This document shows positions 1,267 through 60,160 of a DNA stretch of 64,000 nt, piece by piece. The notes beneath the pieces were generated by a model. It did not search any database. It was not told where the DNA came from and saw nothing but the letters and a program-made list of their open reading frames with translations. The DNA lies in contig NZ_JAZGLW010000003.1 in assembly GCF_036409155.1 (NCBI RefSeq), positions 186,001-250,000 on the forward strand, in the 5' to 3' direction. The stretch comes from Mycobacterium sp. 050128 (GTDB taxonomy: Bacteria > Actinomycetota > Actinomycetes > Mycobacteriales > Mycobacteriaceae). Position numbers and translations under genes: made by a program. Each line of letters begins with the position of its first letter. Positions within the stretch are counted from its first letter, which is position 1.

Positions 1267-2088
1267 ATGGCCGCTCTCGACGCGCTCGACGACTGGCCGG
1301 TGTCGGCTGCCGCCGCCGCGGTGGTCGGACCCGGCGGGGTGCTGGCCACGCACGGCGACACCGAGCGGGTGTTCACGCTGGCGTCGGTCACCAAGCCGGT
1401 GGTGGCCCGCGCCGCGCAGGTCGCGATCGAAGAGGGCGTCGTCGAGCTGGACACTCCGGCCGGCCCGCCCGGCGCGACGGTCCGGCATCTGCTGTCCCAC
1501 GCGTCGGGCCTGGCGATGCTGGACGGCCGGGTGCTGGCCAAGCCCGGCACCCGGCGCATGTATTCCAACTACGGCTTCGCCGTGCTGGCCGAGACTGTGG
1601 AGCGCGAGTCGGGCATCGACTTCAGCCGCTACCTCACCGAGGCGGTGTGCGAGCCGCTGAACATGGGCGCGACCCGGCTGGCCGGCGGCGCGGCGGAGGC
1701 CGGGTACGGGGCGACCTCGACGGTCGCGGATCTGGCGGCGTTCGCCGGCGACCTGTTGCGCCCGTCGACCGTGTCGGCCGAGATGCACGCCGAGGCGACG
1801 ACCGTGCAGTTTCCCGGCCTGGACGGGGTGCTGCCCGGCTACGGCGTGCAGCGGCCCAACGATTGGGGCCTGGGTTTCGAGATCCGGGACGGGAAATCGC
1901 CGCACTGGACCGGGGCGCGCAACTCGGCGCGAACCTACGGCCATTTCGGCCAAGCAGGCGGTTTCATCTGGGCAGATCCCGACGTGGACTTGGCGCTGGT
2001 GGTGCTCACGAACCGCGATTTCGGTGGCTGGGCGCTGGACTTGTGGCCGGCCCTCGCCGACGCGGTCCTACACCAATACATCAAATAG
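1267..2088 (+). CDS. Serine beta-lactamase/DD-peptidase fold protein
   Basis: 273 residues in the class C beta-lactamase family. The nucleophile motif SxxK is present as LASVTKP, the second motif YxN as YSNYGF, and the third as HFGQAGG (HxG). No signal peptide is seen, so the protein probably acts in the cytoplasm on an unknown ester or amide substrate rather than on peptidoglycan. Starts at 1201 (GTG) or 1219 (ATG) are possible, but they would overlap the upstream gene. ATG 1267 gives MAALDALDDWPV, close to the length and start of the Rv2257c family from recall. Confidence 0.8.
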   Translation: MAALDALDDWPVSAAAAAVVGPGGVLATHGDTERVFTLASVTKPVVARAAQVAIEEGVVELDTPAGPPGATVRHLLSHASGLAMLDGRVLAKPGTRRMYSNYGFAVLAETVERESGIDFSRYLTEAVCEPLNMGATRLAGGAAEAGYGATSTVADLAAFAGDLLRPSTVSAEMHAEATTVQFPGLDGVLPGYGVQRPNDWGLGFEIRDGKSPHWTGARNSARTYGHFGQAGGFIWADPDVDLALVVLTNRDFGGWALDLWPALADAVLHQYIK

Positions 2089-2215
2089 GCATCGAGCACT
2101 AGCGCAACACGGGTATCACAGGGCACAATAGACACGCACGAAACAAAATATCTGTTTGTCGGGTTCGCCAGGTCGTTGGGGAAGACGTCCCTCGTGGAAC
2201 CGAAGGAGCAGGTAT

Positions 2216-2728
2216 ATGCGTGCGTCGAATCAATTCGCCGACGTGACGGCAGGTGTGGTGTACATCCATGCCTCGCCCGCGGCGGTATGCCCGCATGTTG
2301 AGTGGGCGTTGTCGTCGACCCTGCAGTCCAAGGCCAACCTGGTCTGGACACCGCAGCCGGCGATGCCAGGACAGCTGCGTGCTGTCACCAACTGGGTCGG
2401 TCCGGTGGGTACCGGTGCCCGGTTGGCCAACGCGCTGCGGTCCTGGTCAGTGCTGCGGTTCGAGGTCACCGAGGACCCGAGCCCTGGCGTCGACGGCCAC
2501 CGCTTCAGCCACACGCCGCAACTGGGCTTGTGGACCGGGGCGATGAGCGCCAACGGCGACATCATGGTCGGGGAGATGCGGCTGCGGTCGATGATGGCGC
2601 AGGGTGCCGACACGCTGGCCGCCGAGCTGGACTCGGTGCTGGGCACCGCGTGGGACGAGGCGCTCGAGGTCTACCGCGACGGCGGCGACGCCGGCGAAGT
2701 CACCTGGCTCAACCGGGGCGTCGGCTAA
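2216..2728 (+). CDS. DUF3145 family protein
   Basis: 170 residues. Sequence such as GVVYIHASPAAVCPHVEWAL and a C-terminal WLNRGVG matches the actinobacterial DUF3145 family (Rv2256c-like, from recall). No membrane segment or signal peptide is seen, and function is unknown. ATG 2216 follows a good AAGGAG ribosome site at 2202-2207. The longer frame from 2156 begins with low-complexity arginine-rich residues unlike the family. The gene ends just before a 38-bp tandem repeat array and faces the secreted-protein gene at 2879. Confidence 0.85.
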   Translation: MRASNQFADVTAGVVYIHASPAAVCPHVEWALSSTLQSKANLVWTPQPAMPGQLRAVTNWVGPVGTGARLANALRSWSVLRFEVTEDPSPGVDGHRFSHTPQLGLWTGAMSANGDIMVGEMRLRSMMAQGADTLAAELDSVLGTAWDEALEVYRDGGDAGEVTWLNRGVG

Positions 2729-2733
2729 ACGCC

Positions 2734-2873
2734 CGGCGGGTTCGGTCGGCGAGTACGCCCGGCTTAACGACCGGCGGGTTCGGTCGGCGGGTACGCCCGG
2801 CTTAACGACCGGCGGGTTCGGTCGGCGGGTACGCCCGGCTTAACGACCGGCGGGTTCGGTCGGCGGGTACGCC
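2734..2873. repeat. 38-bp tandem repeat, 3.7 copies
   Basis: Units begin at 2734, 2772, 2810 and 2848. The first has one base change (GAGTACG for GGGTACG) and the last is cut at 26 bases. Each contains TTCGGTCGGCGGGTACGCCC, with a short CGGG-TACG-CCCG hairpin, and TTAACGAC. The array fills the whole space between two convergent stop codons. It is of the MIRU/VNTR type and copy number could vary between strains. Confidence 0.95.
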
Positions 2874-2878
2874 ACCGT

Positions 2879-3379
2879 TTAGGCGGGGGCGGCAGATACC
2901 GGCATGTCGACGTTGCCGTGACACGCTCCGCTGGTGATGTCGGTGTGAAAGACACCGGACAGTGTCCCGTCGGCGCCGGGTGTGAAGGCGACAACCGATT
3001 TAGCCGGGTCGTATTCGATTGTCCCGTCGGGCAATTGGCAGTCCCATTGCCAGGTTGTGGTGCGCACCCACTGAGACCCGTTCCAGGTGTAGGTGATCGG
3101 GCGCGGGATATACGGATTCTTTGGTGGCGGCGCGTCATACACCGTGGCGACACAGGTCCCGGTTGAGCAGCTGGACCTGAAGCCGTAGTCGACGACGCTG
3201 TTGCCTTCCGGTTTTCCCGCGGCAACGCTGGTGCCCGTCTTGGCGGTGCCGGCGAAGGTCACCTGATACTTGCCGTTCCACACGGGATCGGCCGCGAAAG
3301 CCGAGGGCGCAAGCCACAGCGAGCCGCCCAACGACATGACCGTTATGGCGACAAGCGCCGTGTTGCGATGTCCCGACAT
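2879..3379 (-). CDS. Secreted hypothetical protein (Rv2253-like)
   Basis: 166 residues with a Sec signal peptide (basic MSGHRN, hydrophobic TALVAITVMSLGG, cleavage after APSAFA). The mature part begins DPVWNGKYQVTF and has four cysteines (SSCSTGTC, WQWDC, SGACHG) suited to two disulphides in a small beta-rich extracellular domain. It lies 67 bp downstream of the lipid kinase gene on the same strand and could be cotranscribed. Function is unknown. The family resemblance to Rv2253 is from recall of gene order and length. Confidence 0.8.
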   Translation of the reverse strand: MSGHRNTALVAITVMSLGGSLWLAPSAFAADPVWNGKYQVTFAGTAKTGTSVAAGKPEGNSVVDYGFRSSCSTGTCVATVYDAPPPKNPYIPRPITYTWNGSQWVRTTTWQWDCQLPDGTIEYDPAKSVVAFTPGADGTLSGVFHTDITSGACHGNVDMPVSAAPA

Positions 3380-3446
3380 CGTTCCTCCCAGGGCAGCGCT
3401 CCCACGGCGCGTGTCTGCCCTGATGTCGCGTTTGTCGCGCGAGTTG

Positions 3447-4376
3447 TTACACGACTGGGCGCAGGATCTGCAGTGCGCCAGGCACCGCGGAGAGTTCGGC
3501 GGGCAGCGGGCACGCGTAGTCGCCGTCGGCGTAGACGTTGATGCCGGGGCTTTCGACGTGGATCGTTTTCGCGCGCGCCGTGGTGACCTCGTCGAGCTGG
3601 ACGTGGGTCCCCTTCAACACGGTGGGGAACAGCCGGACGAATTTCGTCCGGGATGCGGTGTGCGCCATCGTGATGTCGAGCAGGCCGTCGGTGTAATCCG
3701 CGTCCGGGCAGATCAGCAGGCCCCCGCCGTAGCTTCGGGTATTGCCGAAGGCCGCCAGCGTGATGTCGGCGTCGATCTCCTTCGTGCCGTCGAGCACCAT
3801 GCGGAATGGCAACATCCGCAGTTGGGTCAGCTCGGCGAGCATCGCGACGTAGTAGCGCAGCCGCCCGTGCGGCCAGCTCATCCGGTTGGCGCGATCGGTG
3901 ACCAGGGAATCGAAGCCGGCGGCCGCCACGGTGCCGAACCACTTGGCCTCTATTGTGCGGCCGTTGCCGCACTGGATGCGGCCCAGGTCGATGGTCTGGG
4001 TCCAGCCGTCGACGACGATGTCCGCGGCGGCCTCGGGATCCTTTGTGGGGATGCCGAATTCGCGGGCGTGGTCGTTGCCGGTGCCCGCCGGGATGATGCC
4101 CAGTGGAATGTCGGTGCCCGCCAACACTTGCAGCGCGTTGGAGATGACGCCGTCGCCACCGGTCGCCACCAGCGCGTCGGTGCCGCGTTCGATGGCCGCG
4201 GCGGCGAGATGGCGGGCGTCTTCGGCGTCGTCGCCGATGATCTCGTTGACTTCGACACCGCGGGCATGCAGTCGCGCGATGGCGGTCTGCGCCACGTGCA
4301 CGGCGGTGCCATGCCCCGAGAGGGGATTGGTCAGCGCGGTCACCTTGGCGATCTCACGCCGGCGCAGCTGGTTCAC
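3447..4376 (-). CDS. Diacylglycerol/lipid kinase (DAGK catalytic domain)
   Basis: 309 residues. The DAGK nucleotide-binding features are visible: KVTALTNPLSGHG near the N-terminus, then the glycine-rich GGDGVISNALQVL and GIIPAGTGNDHAREFGIP. Such enzymes phosphorylate diacylglycerol or related lipids with ATP. The Rv2252 homologue is linked in the literature I recall to phosphatidylinositol mannoside metabolism. GTG 4376 is chosen because it overlaps the upstream stop by four bases (GTGA) and gives the expected start VNQLRRREIAKV. The longer frame reaching 4655 is out-of-frame sequence of the oxidase gene. Confidence 0.88.
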   Translation of the reverse strand: MNQLRRREIAKVTALTNPLSGHGTAVHVAQTAIARLHARGVEVNEIIGDDAEDARHLAAAAIERGTDALVATGGDGVISNALQVLAGTDIPLGIIPAGTGNDHAREFGIPTKDPEAAADIVVDGWTQTIDLGRIQCGNGRTIEAKWFGTVAAAGFDSLVTDRANRMSWPHGRLRYYVAMLAELTQLRMLPFRMVLDGTKEIDADITLAAFGNTRSYGGGLLICPDADYTDGLLDITMAHTASRTKFVRLFPTVLKGTHVQLDEVTTARAKTIHVESPGINVYADGDYACPLPAELSAVPGALQILRPVV

Positions 4377-5989
4377 GGAATCAGCTTGCCGGGATTGAGG
4401 ATTCCCGCCGGATCCAGCGTGGCCTTGACCGCACGCAACACCTGCACGCCGAGGTCGCCGACCTCGTCGCGCATCCAGGGCCGGTGATCGGCACCGACGG
4501 CATGGTGATGGGTGATGGTGCCACCGGCGGCGATGATCGCGTCCGATGCGGCCTTTTTGGCGGCCTGCCACTGCTCGATCGGATTGCCCCGCTGCCCGGC
4601 GACGACGGTGAAGTACAACGATGCGCCGGTGGGGTACACGTGCGAAATGTGGCACATCACCAGTGCCGGTGTCCCGCTTTCGGCCAACGCGGTGGTCAGT
4701 GCCTCGGTGACGGCGGCCTTGAGGGCGCCGATGTTGGACCAGTCGGTGGCGGTCTCCAGCGTCTCGCAGAGTGCGCCCGCGGCGAGCAGCGAGTCGCGCA
4801 GGTATGGCGCGCCGAACCGGCCGCGCTCCCAGGCCTGCGCGGGACCCTCGCCCAACGACGTGCCGCCCTTTTCCGCCAGCAATTCGCGGGTTTCGGCGTG
4901 CCGACTCTCGACGTGTTCCTTGGTGCCCTCGAAGACCGTGATGCCCAGGCAGCCGCCGGTGATCTGGTTCTCGCCGATCGACTCGGTGGTAGCCAGGTTG
5001 ACTCCGGTCTCGGCCTCGTCGGAAAGCCGAATCACGGTGGGGCCGGTCGCATTTTGGGCGACCGCCCGTAAAGCGGCCGCTCCGGTCGCGAAGTCGGGGA
5101 ACGACCAGGCTTCGTAGCTGACGGCCTCCGGTACCGGATGCACCCGCAGCCGCACCTGGGTGATAACGCCGAAGGTGCCCTCCGACCCGATCAGCAGCTG
5201 ACGCAGATCGGGTCCGGCCGCCGACTCCGGTCCGCGGCCCAGGTCCAGCGTTCCGGCTGGAGTGATCACCCGCAGCCCGCGCACCATGTCGTTGAAGCGG
5301 CCGTAGCCGGCCGAGTCCTGACCAGAGGAGCGGGTCGCGGCGAAGCCGCCGATGGTGGCGAATTGGAAGCTCTGCGGGAAATGCCCGAGCGAGAAGCCGC
5401 GTTCGCCGAGCAGGCGTTCGGCGTCGGGACCGGTGAGGCCCGCCCCGAGGACGGCCTGCCCGGACTCCTCGTCGAGCGAGACGAGTTGGTCGAAGCGACG
5501 CAGGTCGAGTGAGATCACGGCGGTGAAGTCGCCGCGAATGGGGTCGAGGCCGCCGACCACGCTGGTGCCGCCGCCGAACGGGACCACGGCGATGCCGCGC
5601 TCGGAGCAGTAACGCAGAATTTTCAGGACGGTCTCGTCGTCACCGGGCAGCAGAATGGCGTCCGGCGCATCTTGAGCTGCGGCTTTTCGCTTCAGCAGGT
5701 CGAGGGTGGACTTGCCGCCGGCGTGCAGCAGCCGATCGCGATCGTCGGTGCGGCAATACTGGGCGCCGACGATCCCCGCGAGCGCATCGCGATCCTGCGT
5801 CGGCAGCGCGGACGGACGCAGCTGCACCTGATCGGGGCCGAGTTCGGCTTGATTCGAATCTTCTAGGCCGACAGCCTGGTTCAGCAGCGACCGAACGCCG
5901 TCCGAGAGCGGTTTGGCGCTAGCGGGATCTCCCCACGCGTTCCATTTCATCGGCGGAAGGAGTTGCTCGGTCCCAAGATCATGCGTCAT
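4373..5989 (-). CDS. FAD-linked oxidase, alkylglycerone-phosphate synthase-like
   Basis: 538 residues. The FAD_binding_4 (PP-loop) domain shows VVPFGGGTSVVGGLDP and a flavin-site segment GGFAATRSSGQDSAGYGRFND. The C-terminal half, with TITHHHAVGADHRPWM, matches the vanillyl-alcohol-oxidase/AgpS fold. It is Rv2251-like from recall. The likely substrate is an acyl- or alkyl-dihydroxyacetone phosphate or glycolate-type molecule, which fits its coupling to the lipid kinase. A start at 5950 (MKWNAWGDP) would give 525 residues and is well preceded by GGCGGAAGGAG. The gene is divergent from the TetR gene, only 17 bp away. Confidence 0.85.
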   Translation of the reverse strand: MTHDLGTEQLLPPMKWNAWGDPASAKPLSDGVRSLLNQAVGLEDSNQAELGPDQVQLRPSALPTQDRDALAGIVGAQYCRTDDRDRLLHAGGKSTLDLLKRKAAAQDAPDAILLPGDDETVLKILRYCSERGIAVVPFGGGTSVVGGLDPIRGDFTAVISLDLRRFDQLVSLDEESGQAVLGAGLTGPDAERLLGERGFSLGHFPQSFQFATIGGFAATRSSGQDSAGYGRFNDMVRGLRVITPAGTLDLGRGPESAAGPDLRQLLIGSEGTFGVITQVRLRVHPVPEAVSYEAWSFPDFATGAAALRAVAQNATGPTVIRLSDEAETGVNLATTESIGENQITGGCLGITVFEGTKEHVESRHAETRELLAEKGGTSLGEGPAQAWERGRFGAPYLRDSLLAAGALCETLETATDWSNIGALKAAVTEALTTALAESGTPALVMCHISHVYPTGASLYFTVVAGQRGNPIEQWQAAKKAASDAIIAAGGTITHHHAVGADHRPWMRDEVGDLGVQVLRAVKATLDPAGILNPGKLIP

Positions 5990-6027
5990 GCGTTACAGTA
6001 TTACACATGCTGTCAATCAGTAACGCA
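5989..6027. promoter_or_regulatory. Overlapping divergent promoter and inverted repeat (FAD oxidase / TetR)
   Basis: An 8-base inverted repeat TGCGTTAC (5989-5996) / GTAACGCA (6020-6027) spans the 17-bp gap and the start of the TetR gene. Between them TACAGTA (5994-6000) reads as a TANNNT -10 box on both strands: TACAGT 7 bases before the TetR ATG, and TACTGT 5 bases before the oxidase ATG. Both genes may therefore be nearly leaderless and share one promoter core that TetR could block. This is inference from the sequence. Confidence 0.55.
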
Positions 6028-6576
6028 GGTTTGGATGTGGCCGACCGGATCCTCGCGGCGGCCGCCAGCTGTGTGGTCGATTTCGGGGTCGACCGGGTGA
6101 CCCTCGCCGAAATCGCCCGGCGCGCGGGTGTGAGCCGGCCGACCGTGTACCGCCGTTGGCCGGACACGCCCGCGGTGGTGGCCGCGCTGCTGACCCAACG
6201 GATCACCGGTGTGATGCAAGAAGCGCCGCTGCTGGGAGAAGACCGTGAATCGCTGGTGCGCCAGATTGTTTCGGTGGCCAATCTGCTGCGCCGCGACGAG
6301 CTGATCATGTCGGTGATGCACTCGCACCTGGCGCCGATCTACATCACCGAGCGGCTCGGCGAAAGCCAGCAGATGCTGATCGGCGCGCTTGCCGACCGGT
6401 TGCGGGTGGCCCAGCGCCACGGCAGTGTGCGCGCGGGCGATCCGCTGCAGATGGCCACCATGGTGTTGCTGATCGCGCAGTCGACGATTCAGTCCGAGCG
6501 GATCGTGCGTCCGATTCTCGATGCCGATGCGCTGGCCGTCGAACTCACTCATTCGCTGAACGGATACCTGTCCTGA
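6007..6576 (+). CDS. TetR family transcriptional regulator
   Basis: 189 residues. The N-terminal helix-turn-helix reads VTLAEIARRAGVSRPTVYRRW. The C-terminal ligand domain has no recognised signature. It is Rv2250c-like from gene order. The stop overlaps the glpD start by one base (TGATG), so regulator and enzyme are translationally coupled. The inverted repeat at 5989-6027 is the natural candidate operator and would control both divergent units. If ATG 6007 is right, half the operator lies inside the coding sequence; TTG 6031 is an alternative start. Confidence 0.88.
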   Translation: MLSISNAGLDVADRILAAAASCVVDFGVDRVTLAEIARRAGVSRPTVYRRWPDTPAVVAALLTQRITGVMQEAPLLGEDRESLVRQIVSVANLLRRDELIMSVMHSHLAPIYITERLGESQQMLIGALADRLRVAQRHGSVRAGDPLQMATMVLLIAQSTIQSERIVRPILDADALAVELTHSLNGYLS

Positions 6577-8111
6577 TGACCGCTTTGAATGCTGCACGTC
6601 GTACCGCCGACCTGAGCGCACTGGCCGACGGCGCGCCGCTGGACGTGCTCGTGATCGGCGGCGGCATCACCGGGGCCGGAATCGCGCTGGACGCCGCGTC
6701 GCGCGGCCTGCGGGTGGCGCTGGTGGACAAACACGATCTGGCATTCGGCACCAGCCGCTGGAGCTCGAAACTGGTCCACGGTGGTCTGCGCTACCTGGCG
6801 ACCGGGAATGTGGGCATCGCTCGGCGCAGCGCCATCGAACGCGGAATCCTGATGACGCACAACGCCCCTCATCTCGTGCACGCGATGCCGCAACTGGTGC
6901 CGTTGCTGCCGTCCATGAGTCACCCGAAGCGTGCGCTGGTGCGTGCGGGATTTTTGGCCGGTGACGCGTTGCGTGCGCTGGCGGGAACGCCGTCGTCGAC
7001 CTTGCCGCGCTCGCGCCGGGTGTCCGCCCAGCGGGTGGCCGAGATGGCGCCCACGGTGCGTCGCGAGGGTCTCGACGGTGGACTGCTGGCCTACGACGGG
7101 CAGTTGATCGACGATGCGCGCCTGGTCACGGCGGTGGCACGGACCGCGGCTCAGCACGGCGCCCGGATCCTCACCTACGTCGCGGCATCCGAGGCCACCG
7201 GCACGTCCGCGCGGCTGACCGATCAGCGCACCGATCAGTCGTTCGACGTGTCCGCCCGCGCGGTGATCAATGCGGCCGGGGTGTGGGCGGCCGACATCGA
7301 CGGCTCACTGCGCCTGCGGCCCAGTCGTGGGACGCATTTGGTCTTCGACGCCGATGCTTTCGGGAATCCGGCTGCGGCGCTGACGATTCCGATTCCCGGC
7401 GAGCTCAATCGCTTCGTGTTCGCGATGCCCGAGCAACTGGGCCGGGTTTACCTCGGGCTCACCGATGAAGCCGCGCCGGGCCCGATTCCCGATGTGCCGG
7501 AGCCGTCTGCCGGTGAGGTCGAATTCCTGCTCGACACGGTGAACACCGCCGTGGGGACCGCGCTGCAGGCCGCCGACGTGATCGGCGCGTACGCCGGCCT
7601 GCGGCCGCTGATCGACACCGGGGAGGGCCGCACCGCCGACGTGTCGCGCGAGCACGCCGTCGTCGAGTCGCCCTCCGGGGTGATCAGCGTGATCGGCGGC
7701 AAGCTGACCGAATACCGCTTCATGGCCGAGGACGTCCTGGACCGCGCCGTCAGCCTGCGGCATCTAGCGGCCGCCACCTGCCGGACCCACAATCTGCCGC
7801 TGATCGGGGCGCCATCCAACCCCGGGCCGGTCGCGGGTTCGCCGGACGGGCTGCCCGCCTCGCTGATCGCCCGCTACGGCGCCGAGGCGCCCACCGTCGT
7901 CGCGACCGCCACCTGCGGGCGCCCGACCGAACCCGTCGCCGAGGGCATCGACGTGACCCGCGCGGAGTTCGAATACGCCGTCACCCACGAGTGCGCGCTC
8001 GACGTCGACGACATCCTCGACCGCCGAACCCGGATCGGCCTGGTGCCCCGCGATCGCGAGCGGGTAGTGGCCGTGGCGGCGGAGTTCCTCGCGGGGGTCG
8101 CCGGCAGCTAG
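6576..8111 (+). CDS. glpD: Glycerol-3-phosphate dehydrogenase (FAD)
   Basis: 511 residues. It has an N-terminal FAD Rossmann motif (VLVIGGGITGAGIALDAASR), the GlpD signature region (FGTSRWSSKLVHGGLRYL) and a C-terminal DAO_C domain (GRPTEPVAEGIDVTRAEFEYA). It oxidises sn-glycerol 3-phosphate to dihydroxyacetone phosphate at the membrane and passes electrons to quinone. It matches the glpD1 position in M. tuberculosis gene order (Rv2249c, from recall). The start overlaps the TetR stop by one base, so local control by that regulator is likely. Confidence 0.93.
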   Translation: MTALNAARRTADLSALADGAPLDVLVIGGGITGAGIALDAASRGLRVALVDKHDLAFGTSRWSSKLVHGGLRYLATGNVGIARRSAIERGILMTHNAPHLVHAMPQLVPLLPSMSHPKRALVRAGFLAGDALRALAGTPSSTLPRSRRVSAQRVAEMAPTVRREGLDGGLLAYDGQLIDDARLVTAVARTAAQHGARILTYVAASEATGTSARLTDQRTDQSFDVSARAVINAAGVWAADIDGSLRLRPSRGTHLVFDADAFGNPAAALTIPIPGELNRFVFAMPEQLGRVYLGLTDEAAPGPIPDVPEPSAGEVEFLLDTVNTAVGTALQAADVIGAYAGLRPLIDTGEGRTADVSREHAVVESPSGVISVIGGKLTEYRFMAEDVLDRAVSLRHLAAATCRTHNLPLIGAPSNPGPVAGSPDGLPASLIARYGAEAPTVVATATCGRPTEPVAEGIDVTRAEFEYAVTHECALDVDDILDRRTRIGLVPRDRERVVAVAAEFLAGVAGS

Positions 8112-8133
8112 CCAACTCTCGAATATGACATGA

Positions 8134-8160
8134 GCTATCATTTCATAGTGGCTATCATAT
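8134..8160 (+). promoter_or_regulatory. Direct repeat over a -10 box before the FAD monooxygenase
   Basis: GCTATCAT occurs at 8134-8141 and 8151-8158, 17 bp apart, within an AT-rich segment that is also bounded by ATATGA (8123) and TCATAT (8155). The first copy contains TATCAT (8136-8141), a TANNNT -10 exactly six bases before GTG 8148. This is the spacing of a leaderless mycobacterial promoter, and no Shine-Dalgarno sequence is visible. A regulator binding the repeats would cover the -10 and the start. No regulator gene lies next to it on this side. Confidence 0.5.
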
Positions 8161-9692
8161 TGCGGGTTCCAGTCCTGATTGTCGGCGCCGGCGCGGGCGG
8201 CCTGGCCATGTCTGCGCTGCTCGCCCAGCACGGCGTTCGGTCGCTGGTGGTCGAAAAGCGCCGCGAGGTGTTCATCTATCCCAAAGCCCGCAACCTGAGC
8301 TTCCGCAGCCTGGAGATCCTTCGCGGCCTCGGCCTGGGCGACGAGGTTCACGCGATCGGTGCGCACGAGCCGGTCGTGGTGACCAAACCGACCCTCAACA
8401 GCACGAGGGAAGAACCGGCGATCGACTTCGAGGCGATTTTCGGCGGCCTGGACGGGTTGAGCCCCGAGCCGGTCCTGCAGTACTGCCCGCAGAGCAGGTC
8501 CGAGCCCATGCTGCTGAGGGCAACGCGCCGCCACGGCAGCGAGGTGCGGTACGGCACCGAGCTGCTGTCGTTCGAATCGGACGCGACCGGCGTCACCGCG
8601 GTCATTCGCGACCGAGACTCGGGGGAGACGGAGACGGTCCGGGCCGACTATCTGGTCGGCGCAGACGGGGTGCACAGTCCTGTCCGCAAAGCGCTGGGCA
8701 TCGCGACCTCCGGCTACGGAGCGCTGCCAATCTTCGTGGTTTTCATGTATTTTCGGGCGCCCTGGCGCAAGTTCGTCGCGCACATCGGCGAGGGCGGCGG
8801 CGTGCAGGTCAAAAATGCTGACGTACAAGGCATCTTCATTGCCGCCGACGGCGACCTCGGGATGTTCATCACCACCTATTTTCCCGGCAAGGGCGAAACC
8901 GCGGACCAGTTCACCCCGGGGCGGTGCCGCGAGATGCTCACCCAAGCGATCGGTGAGCAGATGGACATCGACATCATCGAGATCGCGGCGTGGCAGCCGT
9001 ACGAGCAGGTGGCCAACCAATTCGCTTGTGGGCGAGTATTTCTCGTCGGAGATGCGGCGCACACCATGCCGCCGTTCAAAGCAGGGGGAGCCAACACCGC
9101 GATCCAGAGCGCACACAATCTGGCCTGGAAGCTGGCCGCGGTGCTGCAGGGTACGGCCGGGCCGGCGCTGCTGGATACCTACCAGACCGAACGGCATCCG
9201 GTCGGGCGGTTCGCCGCCCGCCAATCGCTTTCCGGCCCAACGATTCCCTTGCTCCGGCTCGAGGATGACCGGCCGCTGCTGCCGCCGCAGGAAGAGTGCT
9301 CGATGTTCGCGTTGCTGGTGGGCTACCGCTACCGCTCGGCCGCGATCGTCACGGATGATCCGTCCGATGGCGAGTTGGTGGAGGAGTTGCGCGGCCAGCC
9401 GGGCACCCGGGTGCCACACGTGTGGGTGGGCGACGGGGTCTCGACGCTTGATCTGATCGGCGGCGAGTTCACCGTGCTCAGCGGCGACGAGCGATGGTGT
9501 GCCGCCGCGGCTTCGGCGTCGATCGCCGCCCATCGCATCGACGGCGACGAGTGGGCGGCGGCGACCGGACTCTCGCCGCAAGGCGCGTTGCTCATCCGCC
9601 CGGACGACTTCGTCGGCTGGCGTGCCGAGCAGCTGCCCGCCGACCCGGAAGGCGAACTACGCCAGGTGCTTTCGACGTTGCTACGTCGATAG
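8148..9692 (+). CDS. FAD-dependent aromatic monooxygenase (PheA/TfdB type)
   Basis: 514 residues from GTG 8148 (520 from ATG 8130). It carries the FAD_binding_3 landmarks: dinucleotide fold LIVGAGAGGLAMSALLAQ, the DG motif YLVGADGVHSPVR, and the GD motif FLVGDAAHTMPPF. A C-terminal thioredoxin-like region follows (from about residue 390). Such enzymes hydroxylate phenolic or polyketide aromatic rings using NAD(P)H and oxygen; the substrate here is unknown. It is an addition between glpD and accD6 compared with the M. tuberculosis order I recall. It ends 17 bp from the convergent accD6 stop. Confidence 0.85.
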   Translation: MAIILRVPVLIVGAGAGGLAMSALLAQHGVRSLVVEKRREVFIYPKARNLSFRSLEILRGLGLGDEVHAIGAHEPVVVTKPTLNSTREEPAIDFEAIFGGLDGLSPEPVLQYCPQSRSEPMLLRATRRHGSEVRYGTELLSFESDATGVTAVIRDRDSGETETVRADYLVGADGVHSPVRKALGIATSGYGALPIFVVFMYFRAPWRKFVAHIGEGGGVQVKNADVQGIFIAADGDLGMFITTYFPGKGETADQFTPGRCREMLTQAIGEQMDIDIIEIAAWQPYEQVANQFACGRVFLVGDAAHTMPPFKAGGANTAIQSAHNLAWKLAAVLQGTAGPALLDTYQTERHPVGRFAARQSLSGPTIPLLRLEDDRPLLPPQEECSMFALLVGYRYRSAAIVTDDPSDGELVEELRGQPGTRVPHVWVGDGVSTLDLIGGEFTVLSGDERWCAAAASASIAAHRIDGDEWAAATGLSPQGALLIRPDDFVGWRAEQLPADPEGELRQVLSTLLRR

Positions 9693-48945: not shown

Positions 48946-48952
48946 TTTGGGC

Positions 48953-51931
48953 GTGACCAGACCCACGACCGAGCGCCCCCGGCTGCCCAGCGTCGGGCGG
49001 CTCGGTCTGGTGGATCCGCCCGCGGGTGACCGCCTGGCGCAGTTGGGCTGGACGGCCCAGGACGACAAGGCGCACATCGAGCTGCTGTGGGCTTTGTCGC
49101 GAGCACCCGATCCGGACGCCGCGCTGCGGGCATTGGTTCGGCTCTCGGAGAACCCGGACACCGGATGGGACGAGCTCAACGCCGCGCTGCTCCGCGAGCG
49201 CAGCCTGCGCGGGCGACTGTTCTCGGTGCTGGGCTCGTCGCTGACCCTGGGTGATCATCTGGTCGCAAACCCGAAGTCGTGGAAGCTGCTGCGGGGCAAC
49301 GTCAAATTGCCGACGCGCGACGAGCTGCACGAAGCGTTCATCGGGTGCGTCGAAGACGCGCTGGCCGTGCCGAATTCGGTGGTGCCGCGGTTGTCCACGT
49401 TGTACCGCGACCATCTGCTGGTGCTGGCGGCGCTCGACCTGGCGGCGACGGTCGAGGACGAGCCGGTGGTGCCGTTCACCGTGGTCGGCGCCCAGCTGTC
49501 CGACACCGCCGACGCCGTGCTGGCGGCCTCGCTGCGGGCCGCGGAGGCGACCGTCTGCGGCGACAAGACGCCGCCGCGGCTGGCGGTGATCGCGATGGGC
49601 AAATGCGGTGCCCGCGAATTGAACTACGTCAGCGACGTCGACATCATTTTCGTCTCCGAGCAGGCCGACGGGCTGTCCACCCGGGTGGCCACCGAGATGA
49701 TGCGGGTCGCGTCGACCGCATGCTTCCAAGTCGACGCCGGACTGCGCCCGGAGGGCCGCAGTGGTGAGCTGGTCCGTACGGTCGAATCGCACGTCGCCTA
49801 CTACAAGCGCTGGGCGAAGACCTGGGAATTCCAGGCACTGCTGAAAGCCCGCGCCGCCGTGGGCGATGCCGAACTGGGCAAGCGCTACCTCGACGAGTTG
49901 ATGCCGATGGTCTGGATCGCCTGCGAGCGCGAGGACTTCGTGGGCGAAGTGCAGGCGATGCGGCGGCGGGTGGAGCAGCTGGTGCCTTCCGAGGTCCGCG
50001 CTCGCGAGCTCAAGCTCGGCAGCGGCGGACTGCGCGATGTCGAATTCGCCGTGCAGCTACTGCAGTTGGTGCACGGCCGCGGCGACGAGTCCCTGCACGT
50101 GGCCTCCACGGTCGATGCGCTGGCGGCGTTGGGTGCGGGCGGCTACGTCGGACGCGAGGACGCGGCGAACCTGACTGCCTCGTATGAGTTTCTGCGGTTG
50201 CTCGAACACCGCCTGCAGCTGCAACGGCTCAAGCGCACGCACCTGCTGCCGGAGGCCGACGACGAGGAGGCGGTGCGCTGGCTGGCGCGCGCGGCCCACA
50301 TCCGTCCGGACGGCAGCCACGACGCGGCCGGGGTGCTGCGCGAGGAGCTCAAGCACCAGAACGTGCGGGTGTCCCAGCTGCACGCCAAGCTCTTCTACCA
50401 GCCGCTGCTGGAGTCGATCGGGCCGCCCGGCCTGGAGATTTCGCACGGCATGACGTCGGAAGCCGCCGAGCGCCAGCTGGCCGCACTGGGCTACGAGGGG
50501 CCGCAGACGGCGCTGAAACACATGTCGGCGTTGGTGAACCAGAGCGGCCGCCGCGGCCGGGTGCAGTCGGTGCTGCTGCCCAGGCTGCTGAACTGGATGT
50601 CGTACACACCGGATCCCGACGCCGGATTGCTGGCCTACCGGCGCCTGTCCGAGGCGCTGGCTTCCGAGACCTGGTATCTGGCCACGCTGCGTGACAAGCC
50701 CGCGGTGGCCAGGCGGCTGATGAACGTGCTGGGGACTTCCACCTACGTGCCGGACCTATTGATGCGCGCGCCCAGGGTGATTCAGGACTATGGCGACGGC
50801 CCGGCCGGCCCGAAGCTGATCGAGACCGAGCCCGCCGTGGTGGCACGCGGGCTGATCGCCTCGGCGGCCCGTCATCCCGACCCGGTGCGCGCCATCGCCG
50901 CCGCCCGCACGCTGCGCCGCCGAGAACTGGCCCGCATCGGTTCGGCGGATCTGCTCGGCATGCTCGAGGTACGAGACGTCTGCACGGCGCTGACGTCGGT
51001 GTGGGTGGCAGTGCTGCAGGCGGCCCTGGACGCGCTGACCCGGGCCAACCTCCCCGAAGATGGCCGCGCGCCCGCGGCGATCGCGGTCATCGGCATGGGC
51101 AGGTTGGGCGGCGCCGAGCTGGGCTACGGCTCGGATGCCGACGTGATGTTCGTCTGCGAACCCGCCAGTGGCGTCGAAGATTCCGCAGCGGTCAAGTGGG
51201 CGACCACGATCGCCGAGCAGGTGCGCACCCTGTTGGGGACACCGAGCGTCGACCCGCCGCTGGAAGTCGACGCGAACCTGCGACCCGAGGGCCGCAGCGG
51301 TGCGCTGGTCCGCACCCTGGGCTCCTACGCCGCCTACTACGACCAGTGGGCACAGCCGTGGGAGATCCAGGCACTGCTGCGCGCCCACGCCGTCGCCGGT
51401 GACGCCGAACTGGGTCAGCGCTTCTTGCTGATGGCGGACAAGACGCGCTACCCGGCCGACGGCGTGTCCGCCGAGACGGTGCACGAGATCCGCCGGATGA
51501 AGGCCCGTGTCGAATCGGAACGATTGCCGCGTGGCGCCGACCCCAAAACCCATACCAAGCTGGGGCGTGGGGGACTGGCCGACATCGAGTGGACGGTGCA
51601 GCTGCTGCAGCTGCAGCACGCGCACGAGATCCCGGCGCTGCACAACACCTCGACGCTGGAATCGCTCGACGTGATCGCCGAGACGGGGCTGGTTCCCGCC
51701 GACGAGGTGGAGCTGCTGCGGCTGGCCTGGCTGACCGCCACGCGGGCGCGCAACGCGCTGGTGCTGGTGCGGGGCAAGGCGACCGATCAGCTGCCAGGGC
51801 CCGGACGTCAGCTGAATGCGGTCGCGGTCGCGGCGGGCTGGCACAACGATGATGGAAGTGAGTTCTTGGACAACTATTTGCGGGTGACGCGACATGCAAA
51901 AGCGGTGGTGCGCAAGGTGTTCGGGAGTTGA
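48953..51931 (+). CDS. glnE: Glutamine synthetase adenylyltransferase GlnE
   Basis: 992 residues with two nucleotidyltransferase halves. The N-terminal (deadenylylation) site is [20 protein letters not shown] and the C-terminal (adenylylation) site is [20 protein letters not shown]; both keep the G-G/S-DxD pattern, joined by a helical middle. It modifies the tyrosine of GlnA1 according to nitrogen status. GTG 48953 is the likely start. The stop overlaps the next start (TTGA). Confidence 0.95.
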
Positions 51932-55343: not shown

Positions 55344-56918
55344 TCACTGCTTGACGTTGTTTGCCATCTGATCGGCGATCTCGACACCCCGGTTCTGGAC
55401 GGCGGGGGCGCAGGCCAGCACGTCGAGGACGACACTGGACACCGCGCTCAGCACGCGCTGGCATTGATTGGTGCCATCTTTACGGGTGCGTTCCAGCGTA
55501 ATCTTGGGGGCGGCCCCGGCGGGGTTCCCGAAATTCCAGTGAGCCGTACCGGCGGCGGCGGTTACGGTCACGGTTGATCCGGCGCACGCTTTCCAATTGT
55601 TCGCCGATGCCGCCACAAAGGCGTTGGCCGCGTCGGCGGTCGGGAAACTCACCGCGGCCTCGTAGACTCGATAATCGCCGCCGGCATGCAACAACTGGCC
55701 GCGCACCCCGGTGAAGCCGCTGCCCGCGTAAGCCGGATCCTGGGTGGGATAAAACGCGTTGAGGCAGTTCGGGTTTGACAGTTGCCATTCCGGGGCCATT
55801 TGCTGCGTCTGATTGCCGATGTCCAGACTCGGTACCCCCATGATGGTGGCGACTTCCGGAGCGCCGAGGAGGACATAGTCCAGGGGGGTGGACGGTGTCG
55901 GCGTGGGGACCACGCCGCCCGGTGCTGCCGGAGGTGCTCCGCCCGCCACGGCGGAGCCGGGCGGTGTTGGTGCCGGTTGCGCGGCTCTCGGTGTCGCCGC
56001 CGGCTTCTTTCCCGAGCCCTGGGTGACGAGCACAATTGCCGCGACGATCGCGACGACGACCGCGGCCGCGGCACCGCCGATGATGACTAGTCGCTTGCGG
56101 GAATCCCGGGTGGCGCTTGCGCTGCGGGCTTGTGTCGATGAAACTCCTTGTGCTGCAGGTAAAGTAACCGCATCCGGGCTGCTGTCGCGTGGGCCGGCCG
56201 GATTGGGTTGGGTAGCGATCATCGACGCCTCGATGGTGGCCGATGGATCCGCTACGGAGTCGGAAGGCTCGATCGAAGCGAGGACGTTGTCGATGTCGTT
56301 TCGGGTGCGGTAGGTAACGTCGTGCCGCATACGCATCATGCGCAGCAGTTGGGCGATATCGCCGCGGGCGCTGGGGTCGTCGCCGTCCTCGTCGAGTCCG
56401 GATCTGAGTTCGACCAAGAGTTGCAGCTGCTGCTGCGGGCTCAGCTCCTTTTCGGAGAGCTGGTTGCCTAACCGCGTGATGTAGCCGAATGGCACCGGCG
56501 GCTCGTCGGGCAGCGGATCGGGCAGCGGTTGGGGATTACTGACGAGCGAGTGGATGGCGGTGACCAATTGGATGCTGGCGTCAACCGTGGGGTCCCGGTA
56601 GTCGATGATCTGCAGCGCGGCAAGGGGATTGACACGCATGCTGCCGATGTCGCCAATCCGAACGGGAAGGATCGGCCGGTTCAGGGCCTGCGCGTAACGC
56701 AGCTCGGACTGGCTGGGTTTGGACTGTAACCAGTTGCTCGACAGTGCCACAACGAACACATCGCAGGCGCGGATCTGCTCCAGGATCTGGGCCCACCAGG
56801 AATCGCCGCCGCCGAGCTCTTGGTCTAACCAAACCTGTTGATGGGCCCGCCGAAGAGTTGCCGCCAGTGCGTCGACCGGTGACCGATCCTGGCTCGAGTA
56901 GCTCACGAATAAAGTCAT
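55344..56918 (-). CDS. TIR domain, one membrane span and PknH_C-type external sensor domain
   Basis: 524 residues. Residues 1-about 110 are a TIR_2 domain: MTLFVSYSSQDRS, then VWLDQELGGGDSWW and VVALSSNWLQS, with Glu72 in SQSELRYAQAL placed like the catalytic Glu of TIR NADases. Residues 140-216 are a helical linker (LRMMRMRHDVTYRTRNDID). A single span follows at about 277-300, then a Pro/Ala linker. The last 175 residues match the PknH sensor domain (GFTGVRGQLLHAGGDYRVYE, NQCQRVLSAVSSVVLDVLAC). ATG 56918 follows GAGGAA. It lies 52 bp downstream of a receptor kinase gene. Confidence 0.85.
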   Translation of the reverse strand: MTLFVSYSSQDRSPVDALAATLRRAHQQVWLDQELGGGDSWWAQILEQIRACDVFVVALSSNWLQSKPSQSELRYAQALNRPILPVRIGDIGSMRVNPLAALQIIDYRDPTVDASIQLVTAIHSLVSNPQPLPDPLPDEPPVPFGYITRLGNQLSEKELSPQQQLQLLVELRSGLDEDGDDPSARGDIAQLLRMMRMRHDVTYRTRNDIDNVLASIEPSDSVADPSATIEASMIATQPNPAGPRDSSPDAVTLPAAQGVSSTQARSASATRDSRKRLVIIGGAAAAVVVAIVAAIVLVTQGSGKKPAATPRAAQPAPTPPGSAVAGGAPPAAPGGVVPTPTPSTPLDYVLLGAPEVATIMGVPSLDIGNQTQQMAPEWQLSNPNCLNAFYPTQDPAYAGSGFTGVRGQLLHAGGDYRVYEAAVSFPTADAANAFVAASANNWKACAGSTVTVTAAAGTAHWNFGNPAGAAPKITLERTRKDGTNQCQRVLSAVSSVVLDVLACAPAVQNRGVEIADQMANNVKQ

Positions 56919-56970
56919 TGCGGGTTCCTCAGTTACGGCTGAATTCGGTGTGTTGGTGACAGTCAATGGA

Positions 56971-58452
56971 TCATTGATATTGGGCAGCCCACCATTGGTA
57001 CACGTTGTCGAGGCTCGCATTTGGTGGCTGGCCTCGTGCGTCACCGGTGACCAGTTGGGATTGAATCGTCCAAATCACTTCGAATCCGTCACTGACCAGG
57101 CACCCCACCTGACCCTCTGTGTGCTGGGCCGAAGGACGTTGCCACGGTTGGGGCGACGAGGCCGCTCCCGGGCACGGCACAAAGTTGAGGTTATTGAAGG
57201 CGTCGTTCTGCGTGGCTTGGTCCGGAAATAGGTGATACACCACCTCCAAATAGCTGTTGCCGCTTATCGCCGTCGGGCAATGTACAGCCGCCAGCGACCC
57301 GGGGTGGGCCGGCGCAACGGGTGTGCAACGTTCGCTGTTGGGCACCACGGCCAGCAATCGCGACACGGGGTTGCCGGCTGGCGCTGCCCCCGTACCGCGG
57401 GCCGTCGAAACTCGCGACGACGACGCGACTCCACCGCCCGACGATGACGTCGTTGCGATGACGATGACCATGACGACGGTCGCGACGGCGAGCAGGCCGA
57501 CCGCACCGACGACGAGCTTGGTACGTCCGGGTGATGCCGGAGTCGGTGGGAGAGGTTGAGCCGTGTTGGGGACCGCAGCGAATTGGGTGGGTACGCCCGC
57601 GGTCGCCGAAGTCTGGGGCGAGTCCGCCTCGCGTTGACCCGAGGTTGTCAGCGCGGCGCGCGCGGCTTGGGCGAGGTCCTTGGCCGTCGCGTACCGGTGG
57701 TCGGGATCTTTGGCCATACCGGTGGCGACGACGGCGTCCATCGCTTCCGGCACTCCCGGTTGCAGCGTGGACGGCCGGGGCGGAGGCGAGGTCAGGTGCC
57801 CGACGAGCTGTTGTTCGAGGCTTTCACCCGGGTAGGGGCGTTGGGCGGTCAGCGCCTCATGCAGTACGCACGCCAAGGCGTAGATATCAGCGCGGGCGTC
57901 GGCGCGGCCCGCGTTGAGCCGCTCCGGTGACATGTAAGCCGGCGTACCCAGCGTCGCGCCGGTGATGGTCATGCTGGATTCCGCTGCGGCTCGGGCAATT
58001 CCGAAGTCGATCAGATAGGCGAAGTCGTCTTCGGCAACCAAGATGTTGGACGGTTTGACGTCGCGGTGCACCAGCCCAATTTCGTGCGCGGCGTGCAGCG
58101 CCGAGGCGATCTGTTCGATGATCCCGACTGCACGCGCTGGGGGCAACGGACCGTCGTTGAGGAGATCGCGTAGGTCGCGGCCATGGATCAGCCGCATGGT
58201 CACGTACAGCCGACCGTCGACCTCACCGAAGTCGTGTATCGGGACTACGTGCGGTTCGTCGAGCCCGGCGGCTGATCGCGCTTCGCGGCGGAACCGCTCT
58301 TGGAACGCCTGATCGTCGGCAAAGCTGGGCGCCAACACTTTCAGCGCCACAACGCGGTTCATTTCCGGGTCGTAGGCGCGCCACACCTCGCCCATGCCGC
58401 CGCGGCCCAGCAACTCGGTCAGCCGGTAGCGGCCGAACGGCGTTCCGTCCAC
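56971..58452 (-). CDS. Transmembrane Ser/Thr protein kinase
   Basis: 493 residues. Kinase landmarks are GRGGMGEVW, Lys38 (VALKVL), HRDVKPSNIL (Asp131), DFGIA (Asp149) and GTPAYMSPE; the activation loop holds Thr/Ser residues (SSMTITGATLGT). A Thr/Pro-rich juxtamembrane part is followed by one span (KLVVGAVGLLAVATVVMVIVIA) and an external domain of about 130 residues with four cysteines (ERCTPV, VHCPTA, VPCPGA, VGCLVS). It is of the PknB/PknH type. GTG 58452 follows GGAAGGGGAG; the longer frame upstream is not kinase-like. It is cotranscribed with the TIR gene. Confidence 0.9.
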   Translation of the reverse strand: MDGTPFGRYRLTELLGRGGMGEVWRAYDPEMNRVVALKVLAPSFADDQAFQERFRREARSAAGLDEPHVVPIHDFGEVDGRLYVTMRLIHGRDLRDLLNDGPLPPARAVGIIEQIASALHAAHEIGLVHRDVKPSNILVAEDDFAYLIDFGIARAAAESSMTITGATLGTPAYMSPERLNAGRADARADIYALACVLHEALTAQRPYPGESLEQQLVGHLTSPPPRPSTLQPGVPEAMDAVVATGMAKDPDHRYATAKDLAQAARAALTTSGQREADSPQTSATAGVPTQFAAVPNTAQPLPPTPASPGRTKLVVGAVGLLAVATVVMVIVIATTSSSGGGVASSSRVSTARGTGAAPAGNPVSRLLAVVPNSERCTPVAPAHPGSLAAVHCPTAISGNSYLEVVYHLFPDQATQNDAFNNLNFVPCPGAASSPQPWQRPSAQHTEGQVGCLVSDGFEVIWTIQSQLVTGDARGQPPNASLDNVYQWWAAQYQ

Positions 58453-58723: not shown

Positions 58724-60160
58724 TTAAACGTCGTAGTACAGCGCGAACTCGTAGGGGTGCGGCCGGATCTGGACCGGCAGAATCTCGTTCTCGCGCTTGA
58801 AGTTGATCCACGTCTCAATCAGGTCGGGCGTGAAAACGCCTCCCTCGGTGAGGTATTCGTGGTCCTCTTCCAGCCGGTCGATCACCGCGGACAGCTGAGT
58901 GGGCGCCTGCGGGATGTTGGCGGCCTCTTCCGGCGGCAGCTCGTAGAGGTCCTTGTCGACCGGCGCCTGCGGCTCGATCTTGTTCTTGATGCCGTCCAGG
59001 CCGGCCATCAGCATGGCCGAGAACGCCAGGTACGGGTTGCCCGACGAGTCGGGGCAACGGAACTCGAGCCGCTTGGCCTTCGGGTTGCTGCCGGTGATCG
59101 GGATACGCACACAGGCCGACCGGTTGCGCTGGCTGTACACCAGGTTGATCGGGGCCTCGTAGCCGGGCACCAGACGCTTGTAGGAGTTCACCGTCGGGTT
59201 GGTGAACGCCAGCAGCGACGGCGCGTGGTGCAGCAGTCCGCCGATGTAGTAGCGCGCGGTGTCGGACAGGCCGGCGTACCCGGTCTCGTCGTACATCAAC
59301 GGGCTGCCGTCTTTCCACAGCGACTGGTGGGTGTGCATGCCGGATCCGTTGTCACCGAACAGCGGCTTGGGCATGAACGTGACGGTCTTGCCGTTCTGCC
59401 AAGCGGTGTTCTTGACGATGTACTTGTACAACTGCATGTCGTCGGCCGCGTGCAACAGGGTGTTGAACTTGTAGTTGATCTCGGCCTGACCGCCGGTGCC
59501 CACCTCGTGGTGGCCCTTCTCCAGGCTGAAGCCCGCTTCGATCAGATTCGACAGCATCTGGGCGCGCAGGTCCACGTAGTGGTCGACGGGCGCCACCGGG
59601 AAGTACCCACCCTTGGGACGGACCTTGTAGCCGCGGTTGGGGGTGCCGTCGTTCTCGGTGGGTTCGCCGGTGTTCCACCAGCCGGAGATCGCGTCCACCT
59701 CGTAGAACGAGCCGTTGGTGCGGGAGTCGAAGCTCACCGAGTCGAAGATGTAGAACTCTGCCTCGGCGCCGAAGTACGCCGTGTCGGCGACGCCGGTGCT
59801 GATCAAGTAGTTCTCCGCCTTGCGTGCCACGTTGCGTGGGTCGCGCGAGTACGCCTCGAGGGTGAAGGGGTCGTGCACGAAGAAGTTGAGGTTCAGCGTC
59901 TTGTGTTGGGTGAACAGATCGATTTGCGCGGTAGCCGGGTCGGGCAGGAGCAACATGTCCGATTCGTGGATCGACTGGAACCCGCGAATCGACGAGCCGT
60001 CGAAGGCCAGACCGTCTTCGAAAACGCTCTCGTCGAAAAACGAAATCGGAATCGTGAAGTGCTGCATGATGCCGGGCAGGTCACAGAATCGGACGTCGAC
60101 GAATTCGACGTTTGCGTCCTTGGCGAGTTTGAAGACGTCGTCCTGCGTCTTTTCCGTCAC
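58724..60160 (-). CDS. glnA1: Glutamine synthetase GlnA1 (type I-beta)
   Basis: 478 residues. Active-site segments are [34 protein letters not shown] and [16 protein letters not shown]. The adenylylation tyrosine is in [14 protein letters not shown], the target of GlnE. It is the main assimilatory glutamine synthetase; in pathogenic species it is also released and supports wall poly-glutamate/glutamine. ATG 60160 follows AAAGGAG. A GlnR-like box lies 72 bp upstream of the start. Confidence 0.97.

Follow-up and report, generated by a model that had tools for sequence, protein, structure and literature searches.

Signalling by TIR domains through isomers of cyclic ADP-ribose (cADPR) is known in both bacteria and plants, where it is mostly triggered from inside the cell. 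In bacteria, the Thoeris systems combine the TIR protein ThsB and cADPR signals with the SLOG effector ThsA. In 2015, Burroughs et al. reportedly connected the RyR-type and TIR domains of prokaryotes with signalling by nucleotides, and the general idea put forward here may have its printed forerunner there. We analysed a stretch of 64,000 nucleotides from Mycobacterium sp. 050128 (contig NZ_JAZGLW010000003.1, positions 186,001 to 250,000), referred to as the window, in which a minus-strand gene for a TIR protein follows a gene for a transmembrane Ser/Thr kinase after a gap of 52 bp. Here, the TIR domain is the part of an envelope receptor that lies inside the cell, and most relatives are encoded beside the likely receiver, a channel-like protein that contains a RyR domain. 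This pairing suggests a bacterial counterpart of cADPR signalling that is driven from the cell envelope. Our reading, to which we give a probability of about one half, is that the receptor makes a cADPR-type signal that gates the RyR-domain channel, with the window copy serving as a duplicated, new input.

Several described systems resemble parts of this arrangement. As in Thoeris, there is a TIR domain with a conserved glutamate, and a signal derived from nicotinamide adenine dinucleotide (NAD+) would be expected to reach a separate receiver protein; unlike Thoeris, the enzyme would be a one-pass receptor with an outer sensor, and the receiver a membrane protein with RCK and RyR domains. Neither a ThsA-type SLOG protein nor another listed Thoeris effector was found beside the TIR gene, whose usual neighbour, the RyR-RCK gene, has no match in PADLOC. 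The receptor shares one transmembrane segment and a PknH_C outer domain with PknH and PknE, and the adjacent kinase domain is nearest to PknE, but the TIR protein lacks a kinase domain and carries the TIR domain and a helical module in its place. The partner's RyR (Repeat12) domain, with its His, Trp and His ligand residues, recalls animal ryanodine receptors and the phage protein RyDEP; it differs in being part of a bacterial membrane protein, mostly of 580-940 amino acids with RCK-like domains, and in having mostly Asn at the position of RyDEP D117 in the main family. With KefC and the cation channels gated by RCK domains, the partner has in common a transmembrane region followed by RCK-like domains, of which TrkA_N is clear in some members and below its cut-off in others; it differs from them in its added RyR domain and in being encoded beside a TIR receptor. 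A literature search on PknH with a TIR domain found no paper, and among the matches listed, taken by titles and the beginnings of abstracts, none concerned a PknH_C TIR receptor or the pairing of TIR genes with RyR channels.

The window TIR gene encodes a one-pass receptor of 524 amino acids that belongs to a mycobacterial family. Open reading frames (ORFs), Pfam and hydropathy bear out what an earlier note had read from the letters of this stretch, namely the spacing and common direction of the kinase and TIR genes and the order of TIR domain, helical linker, single membrane span and PknH-type sensor. The TIR fold is recognized by a curated profile (TIR_2, 79 bits against a cut-off of 28) and the outer domain by PknH_C (137 bits against 27); a profile built from 88 relatives matches the solved kinase sensor 4esq across the outer domain with an E-value of 8e-49. 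There is no Pkinase match in the 566-amino-acid ORF that holds the protein. The helical module behind the TIR domain has no Pfam match at E≤1, and its identification with a known Pfam domain was rejected.

To place the receptor among its relatives, 297 genomes of the genus were searched, with matches in 277, many of them to the PknH_C part only; the survey rests on the matches listed, and the stretches fetched are the listed places covering the TIR part, weaker matches lying outside it. Their ORFs were scanned with profiles for TIR, for the helical module (LNK, residues 129-217) and for PknH_C, and with single-sequence queries for the kinase, glnA and glnE. This identified 94 ORFs with TIR and LNK; for 84 of them, from 74 genomes, PknH_C is encoded in that ORF or in another close by. 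Of the remaining ten, three (L099, L102, L114) are short or lie at a contig end. Glu72, whose lack of conservation in homologues would have counted against the reading of the earlier note, lies in the S-x-W...E motif of TIR NADases and is present in all 94, as are Ser60 and Trp42. The window TIR domain is likely to be an NAD-cutting enzyme, and since its invariant Glu is joined to a PknH-type outer sensor, an envelope signal may well control the cleavage of NAD+.

Selection on the gene was estimated from the ratio of nonsynonymous to synonymous substitution rates (dN/dS) between the window and three orthologues (in genomes G277, G110 and G244). The TIR domain (0.11-0.16) and PknH_C (0.12-0.19) are constrained and the linker is looser (0.41-0.55), while the helical module, 98-99% identical, has the lowest values of all parts (0.03-0.06). 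Since the folded parts all have low ratios, the architecture of the gene is not due to chance. Many TIR domains act through assembly, and the strong constraint on the helical module could fit a receptor in which a non-enzymatic TIR domain scaffolds the channel or the kinase. This we regard as quite improbable, given that Glu72, Ser60 and Trp42 are each invariant and that the partner's domain binds NAD-derived nucleotides in phage relatives (PMC13232231).

The recurrent partner was recognized through a second receptor in the same genome. This sister, 58% identical to the window protein, lies by purF-purM-ygfZ-pabC, directly downstream of the gene for P0121, a 790-amino-acid membrane protein whose RyR domain (PF02026) scores 32 bits, above the cut-off of 27.4. 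Homologues of P0121, termed the e family, have matches in 110 of the 297 genomes and lie within 1 kb of 66 of the 84 receptor loci; at one of these, L106, the contig stops short of the RyR domain. A second family, e2, adjoins the receptor in eight of the 18 loci without e; its proteins at these eight loci share 48-95% identity with three members in which both TrkA_N (59-65 bits) and RyR (35-46 bits) are clearly matched. Altogether, a RyR-domain gene is found within 1 kb in 73 of the 84 loci, on the same strand in 59 and on the opposite strand in 14. The 11 remaining loci are the five of the window type, L106, the second of two tandem receptors in L096, and L086, L103, L110 and L111, the last four in genomes that carry e elsewhere. 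All 74 genomes with receptor loci match the channel-like family (69 with e and five with e2 adjoining the TIR gene), and the co-occurrence of e with the receptor gives a Fisher p of 4e-32, a value that ignores kinship. Only two of the ten TIR-LNK ORFs without PknH_C have a RyR neighbour, compared with 73 of the 84 that have it, so the pairing goes with the PknH_C architecture.

The pairing recurs in distinct arrangements, which speaks for more than conserved synteny. At the purF-purM-pabC site, receptor and e share a strand; elsewhere they face opposite ways and have different flanking genes, and e2 accompanies divergent receptors. Outside the receptor loci, e also lies beside TIR-nSTAND1-WD40 genes. 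Two loci show other forms. In L096 (G218, 6024-9114) two TIR-PknH_C receptors stand in tandem with one divergent channel gene adjoining, and L125, from a 3.27-Mb genome (G115), has at the usual site no more than decayed remnants of the TIR receptor and of the channel C-terminus.

What the RyR domain may do is best considered against RyDEP, a mycobacteriophage RyR-domain protein. RyDEP cleaves 2' and 3'cADPR, six of eight tested homologues bind (sequester) these isomers, and the ligand contacts are H75, W78, H100 and D117, of which D117 is catalytic (PMC13232231). The profile of the channel-like family matches an RyR1 chimera (6uhi, 1.6e-23), animal RyR2 (5l1d, 1.2e-17), KefC (0.0034) and 35tm (1.6e-7), a 139-amino-acid RyR protein that from its length we take to be the RyDEP structure. 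The channel's RyR profile aligns with RyDEP free of gaps, placing H75, W78 and H100 at H592, W595 and H617, and D117 at position 634. In the main family, the first three are invariant (23/23) and position 634 is Asn in 20 of 23. These kept contacts suggest a cADPR-type ligand and, together with the Asn, a domain that in the main family is more a binder than an enzyme. In the wider set of 29 proteins, H592 is kept in 28 and W595 in all.

The same comparison bears on another explanation, in which the TIR domain depletes NAD+ and arrests growth. The RyR protein would then be no gated channel but would act, as RyDEP does, on the product, handling it or braking the response. RyDEP's cleavage of cADPR isomers and their sequestration by its homologues (PMC13232231) agree with this explanation, as does position 634, which is variable in the wider set and is Asp in 10 of 29. 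The explanation nevertheless seems improbable to us, as the catalytic position is Asn in most of the main family and a brake would have no need of the membrane and RCK-like parts to which RyR is joined.

In the reading we prefer, of a gated channel, the outer PknH_C domain would sense an envelope ligand or state and, via the transmembrane segment and linker, alter the assembly of the inner TIR domain and helical module. The TIR domain would then cleave NAD+ at Glu72 to give a cADPR-type product. In most relatives, this product would be received by the neighbour-encoded membrane protein, which combines RCK/TrkA-like nucleotide domains with RyR, and binding of the product to RyR would open or close the channel-like protein. 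The window duplicate, in an operon-like unit with a sensor kinase, would bring a new envelope signal to the same output. More tentatively, the locus may represent a bacterial form of the disputed cADPR-ryanodine-receptor pathway, diversifying by receptor duplication, sensor change and an added kinase while its output is kept.

Several points weigh against the reading of a gated channel. The data establish the anatomy, pairing, conservation and duplication of the receptor, and the NADase activity, its product, RyR binding, gating and the role of the kinase are inferred. The RyR partner is a putative cation channel or gate, with a presumed pore and ion selectivity. TrkA_N reaches only 15 bits in P0121, below the cut-off of 23.8, and is matched at E≤0.01 in seven of 29 channel-like proteins (RyR in all 29). 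H617 is His in 22 of the wider set of 29, partly through alignment gaps. The window copy itself is adjoined by no RyR-domain gene, the usual partner lying outside the window. In the main clade, other neighbours of the receptor are conserved too, so adjacency there is not independent evidence and the clade counts as one event. Among 107 fetched e loci, a receptor lies within 1.5 kb in 67, a neighbour of the TIR-nSTAND1-WD40 type within 5 kb in 26 and another TIR gene in one, and 13 have no TIR gene nearby; many of the 26 assignments rest on weak or partial matches. Of 19 RyR loci fetched from outside the genus, only L203 and L208 are within 5 kb of a TIR gene, although many of these genomes hold 16-43 TIR genes.

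These last loci come from a class-wide sample with a RyR domain in 37 of 296 genomes, from which 20 RyR loci were fetched, 19 outside the genus and one within it (L216, beside a TIR gene). A weak TIR match in L200 lies slightly beyond 5 kb from the RyR gene, and in G387, which is not among the fetched loci, RyR and TIR are about 0.85 kb apart. Coupling as a rule for all actinobacteria is not supported by the two of 19; taken with the counts within the genus, they indicate that it is strong in mycobacteria and occasional elsewhere.

The second kind of neighbour raises the question of whether this is a Thoeris-type anti-phage defence unit with a transmembrane sensor. A RyR protein of the mycobacteriophage DyoEdafos eliminates cADPR signals (PMC13232231), and the TIR-nSTAND1-WD40 and patatin genes with which the channel family is also paired look like a defence set. 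A neighbour in L131 matches the ThsB TIR profile (26 bits) in addition to TIR_2. In contrast, PADLOC matches of the window TIR protein are weak (best 26 bits, ThsB 18) and the channel has none, so that a known defence system was rejected, and the main locus keeps its place among housekeeping genes. An outward-facing sensor is also unusual for phage defence, and we consider defence a somewhat unlikely function for the receptor.

Among the 26 neighbours, the nSTAND1 and WD40 domains were confirmed by Pfam in all three scanned for them (L140, L142, L155), and TIR_2 was above its cut-off in all seven scanned for it (L131, L137, L139, L140, L141, L142, L155). In L155 (7159-12582), L156 and L158, a patatin gene lies between the TIR-nSTAND1-WD40 gene and the RyR channel gene, and these sets are possibly a second, immune-type unit. 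The L131 neighbour (1949-4882, in G110) is a 978-amino-acid ORF by a second, interrupted channel gene, and its start matches TIR_2 with 46 bits. In DyoEdafos (gp77-gp79, L218), the RyR gene lies between genes for a ribose-phosphate pyrophosphokinase and a nicotinamide phosphoribosyltransferase.

The window gene arose by duplication and is no longer next to the channel; its sensor has changed and its TIR domain and module are nearly unchanged: identity to the sister in its own genome is 81% in the TIR domain and 89% in the module, and 38% in the sensor. The five copies at the site marked by glnA and glnE (window, G277, G110, G244 and G143; in G110 only glnE is visible in the fetched stretch) form one clade (support 100/98) nested within the channel-linked receptors in the tree, and all five genomes carry e. 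Since the single RyR match of the window's own genome lies beside the sister, the window copy probably shares the sister's output and probably feeds a new envelope signal into it.

The earlier note had instead placed the kinase at the centre, reading a shared envelope signal with the TIR protein, and had held that rare co-occurrence of the two genes would speak against the pair. A kinase lies within 1 kb of the TIR gene in only six of the 84 loci: the five of the glnA/glnE clade, and L089 with a PknK-like kinase-cyclase. The two genes are therefore rarely together and do not stay together across genomes as a conserved system would, and an obligate kinase partner is rejected as the general rule. 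A sensor common to both proteins was also rejected: the kinase's outer part has no PknH_C match in Pfam and represents another mycobacterial outer-domain type, which is matched in 146 of 198 genomes within the genus. Because the outer domains differ, the idea of one signal for both partners lost its support. What stood of that interpretation is the TIR domain with an invariant Glu on a PknH-type sensor; the kinase as defining partner fell away.

Within the glnA/glnE sub-lineage, phosphorylation of the TIR protein by the kinase is possible, and the adjacent kinase may tune the window receptor. A full kinase-TIR module, in which the kinase phosphorylates the receptor or both jointly read the envelope and set a threshold for NAD+ cleavage, could draw on the short spacing on one strand, on both genes being uninterrupted in the window, G277, G110 and G244 (the last with a PknH-type kinase on the other side too), and on purifying selection on both. 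For the kinase, whose domain is nearest among solved chains to PknE (2h34), dN/dS against G277, G110 and G244 is 0.08-0.17 in the kinase domain and looser in the outer domain (0.66, 0.23 and 0.24). Such a module is nonetheless unlikely, in view of the six loci of 84, five in one clade, the differing outer domains, and G143, where both genes are in pieces. Coordinates of the two genes, their parts and the flanks are collected in Table 1; further ORFs sit between the TIR gene and glnE.

Table 1. Positions of the receptor and kinase genes, their domains and the flanking genes in the window.
Feature	Position	Strand	Basis
TIR receptor gene (TIR - helical module - linker - transmembrane - PknH_C), 524 amino acids, ATG start	55344..56918	-	ORF reading, Pfam, purifying selection
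TIR_2 domain, residues 4-110	56589..56909	-	Pfam 79 bits
Glu72 codon, putative NADase glutamate	56703..56705	-	Glu in 94/94 TIR+module ORFs
Conserved helical module (LNK), residues 129-217, behind TIR	56268..56534	-	Conservation; low dN/dS
Transmembrane segment of TIR protein, residues 278-296 (approximate)	56031..56087	-	Hydropathy
PknH_C sensor domain, extracytoplasmic, residues 342-520	55359..55895	-	Pfam 137 bits; profile against 4esq_A
Transmembrane Ser/Thr kinase gene, 493 amino acids, GTG start at 58452	56971..58452	-	ORF reading, Pfam
Protein kinase domain	57688..58428	-	Pfam Pkinase 145 bits; K, HRD and DFG motifs read in protein
Kinase transmembrane segment	57457..57513	-	Hydropathy
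Kinase outer domain, unlike PknH_C	56974..57345	-	No PknH_C match; matches in 146/198 genomes
glnA (type I glutamine synthetase), flank marking insertion site	58724..60160	-	TIGR00653 681 bits
glnE, opposite flank of site	48947..51931	+	NF010707 1392 bits

The proposed pathway would bear on a question about animal channels. The paper on RyDEP leaves it to future studies whether their RyR domain is a direct target of cADPR (PMC13232231, section 5), and a small bacterial two-gene unit would make the question testable with purified parts. The receptor-channel unit is also a pathway of the mycobacterial host that DyoEdafos could be targeting with its RyR-domain protein.

Some further observations concern the kinase and the TIR-LNK unit. 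The window kinase matches the PD-T4-6 models of PADLOC with up to 431 bits over the kinase domain and transmembrane region, which probably reflects general kinase similarity. In G244 (L037, 4113-9140), the TIR gene is flanked by kinases on both sides, and the downstream, PknH-type kinase has its own PknH_C. Two ORFs of 1349-1353 amino acids begin with TIR-LNK (L123:5985-10031 in G102 and L124:5963-10021 in G114); in L123, Pfam places a cyclase domain, AAA_16 and TPR behind it, and L124, outside the Pfam scan, is of similar appearance. L089 (878-5065, minus strand) has the layout of L123 with a kinase replacing TIR. Among the signalling proteins of mycobacteria, TIR-LNK and kinase domains seem to take each other's place. 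In L126:5944-8184, L120:5614-7059 and L119:5762-7501, TIR-LNK is joined to other ends, namely LpqN, RDD and a DUF308-like region.

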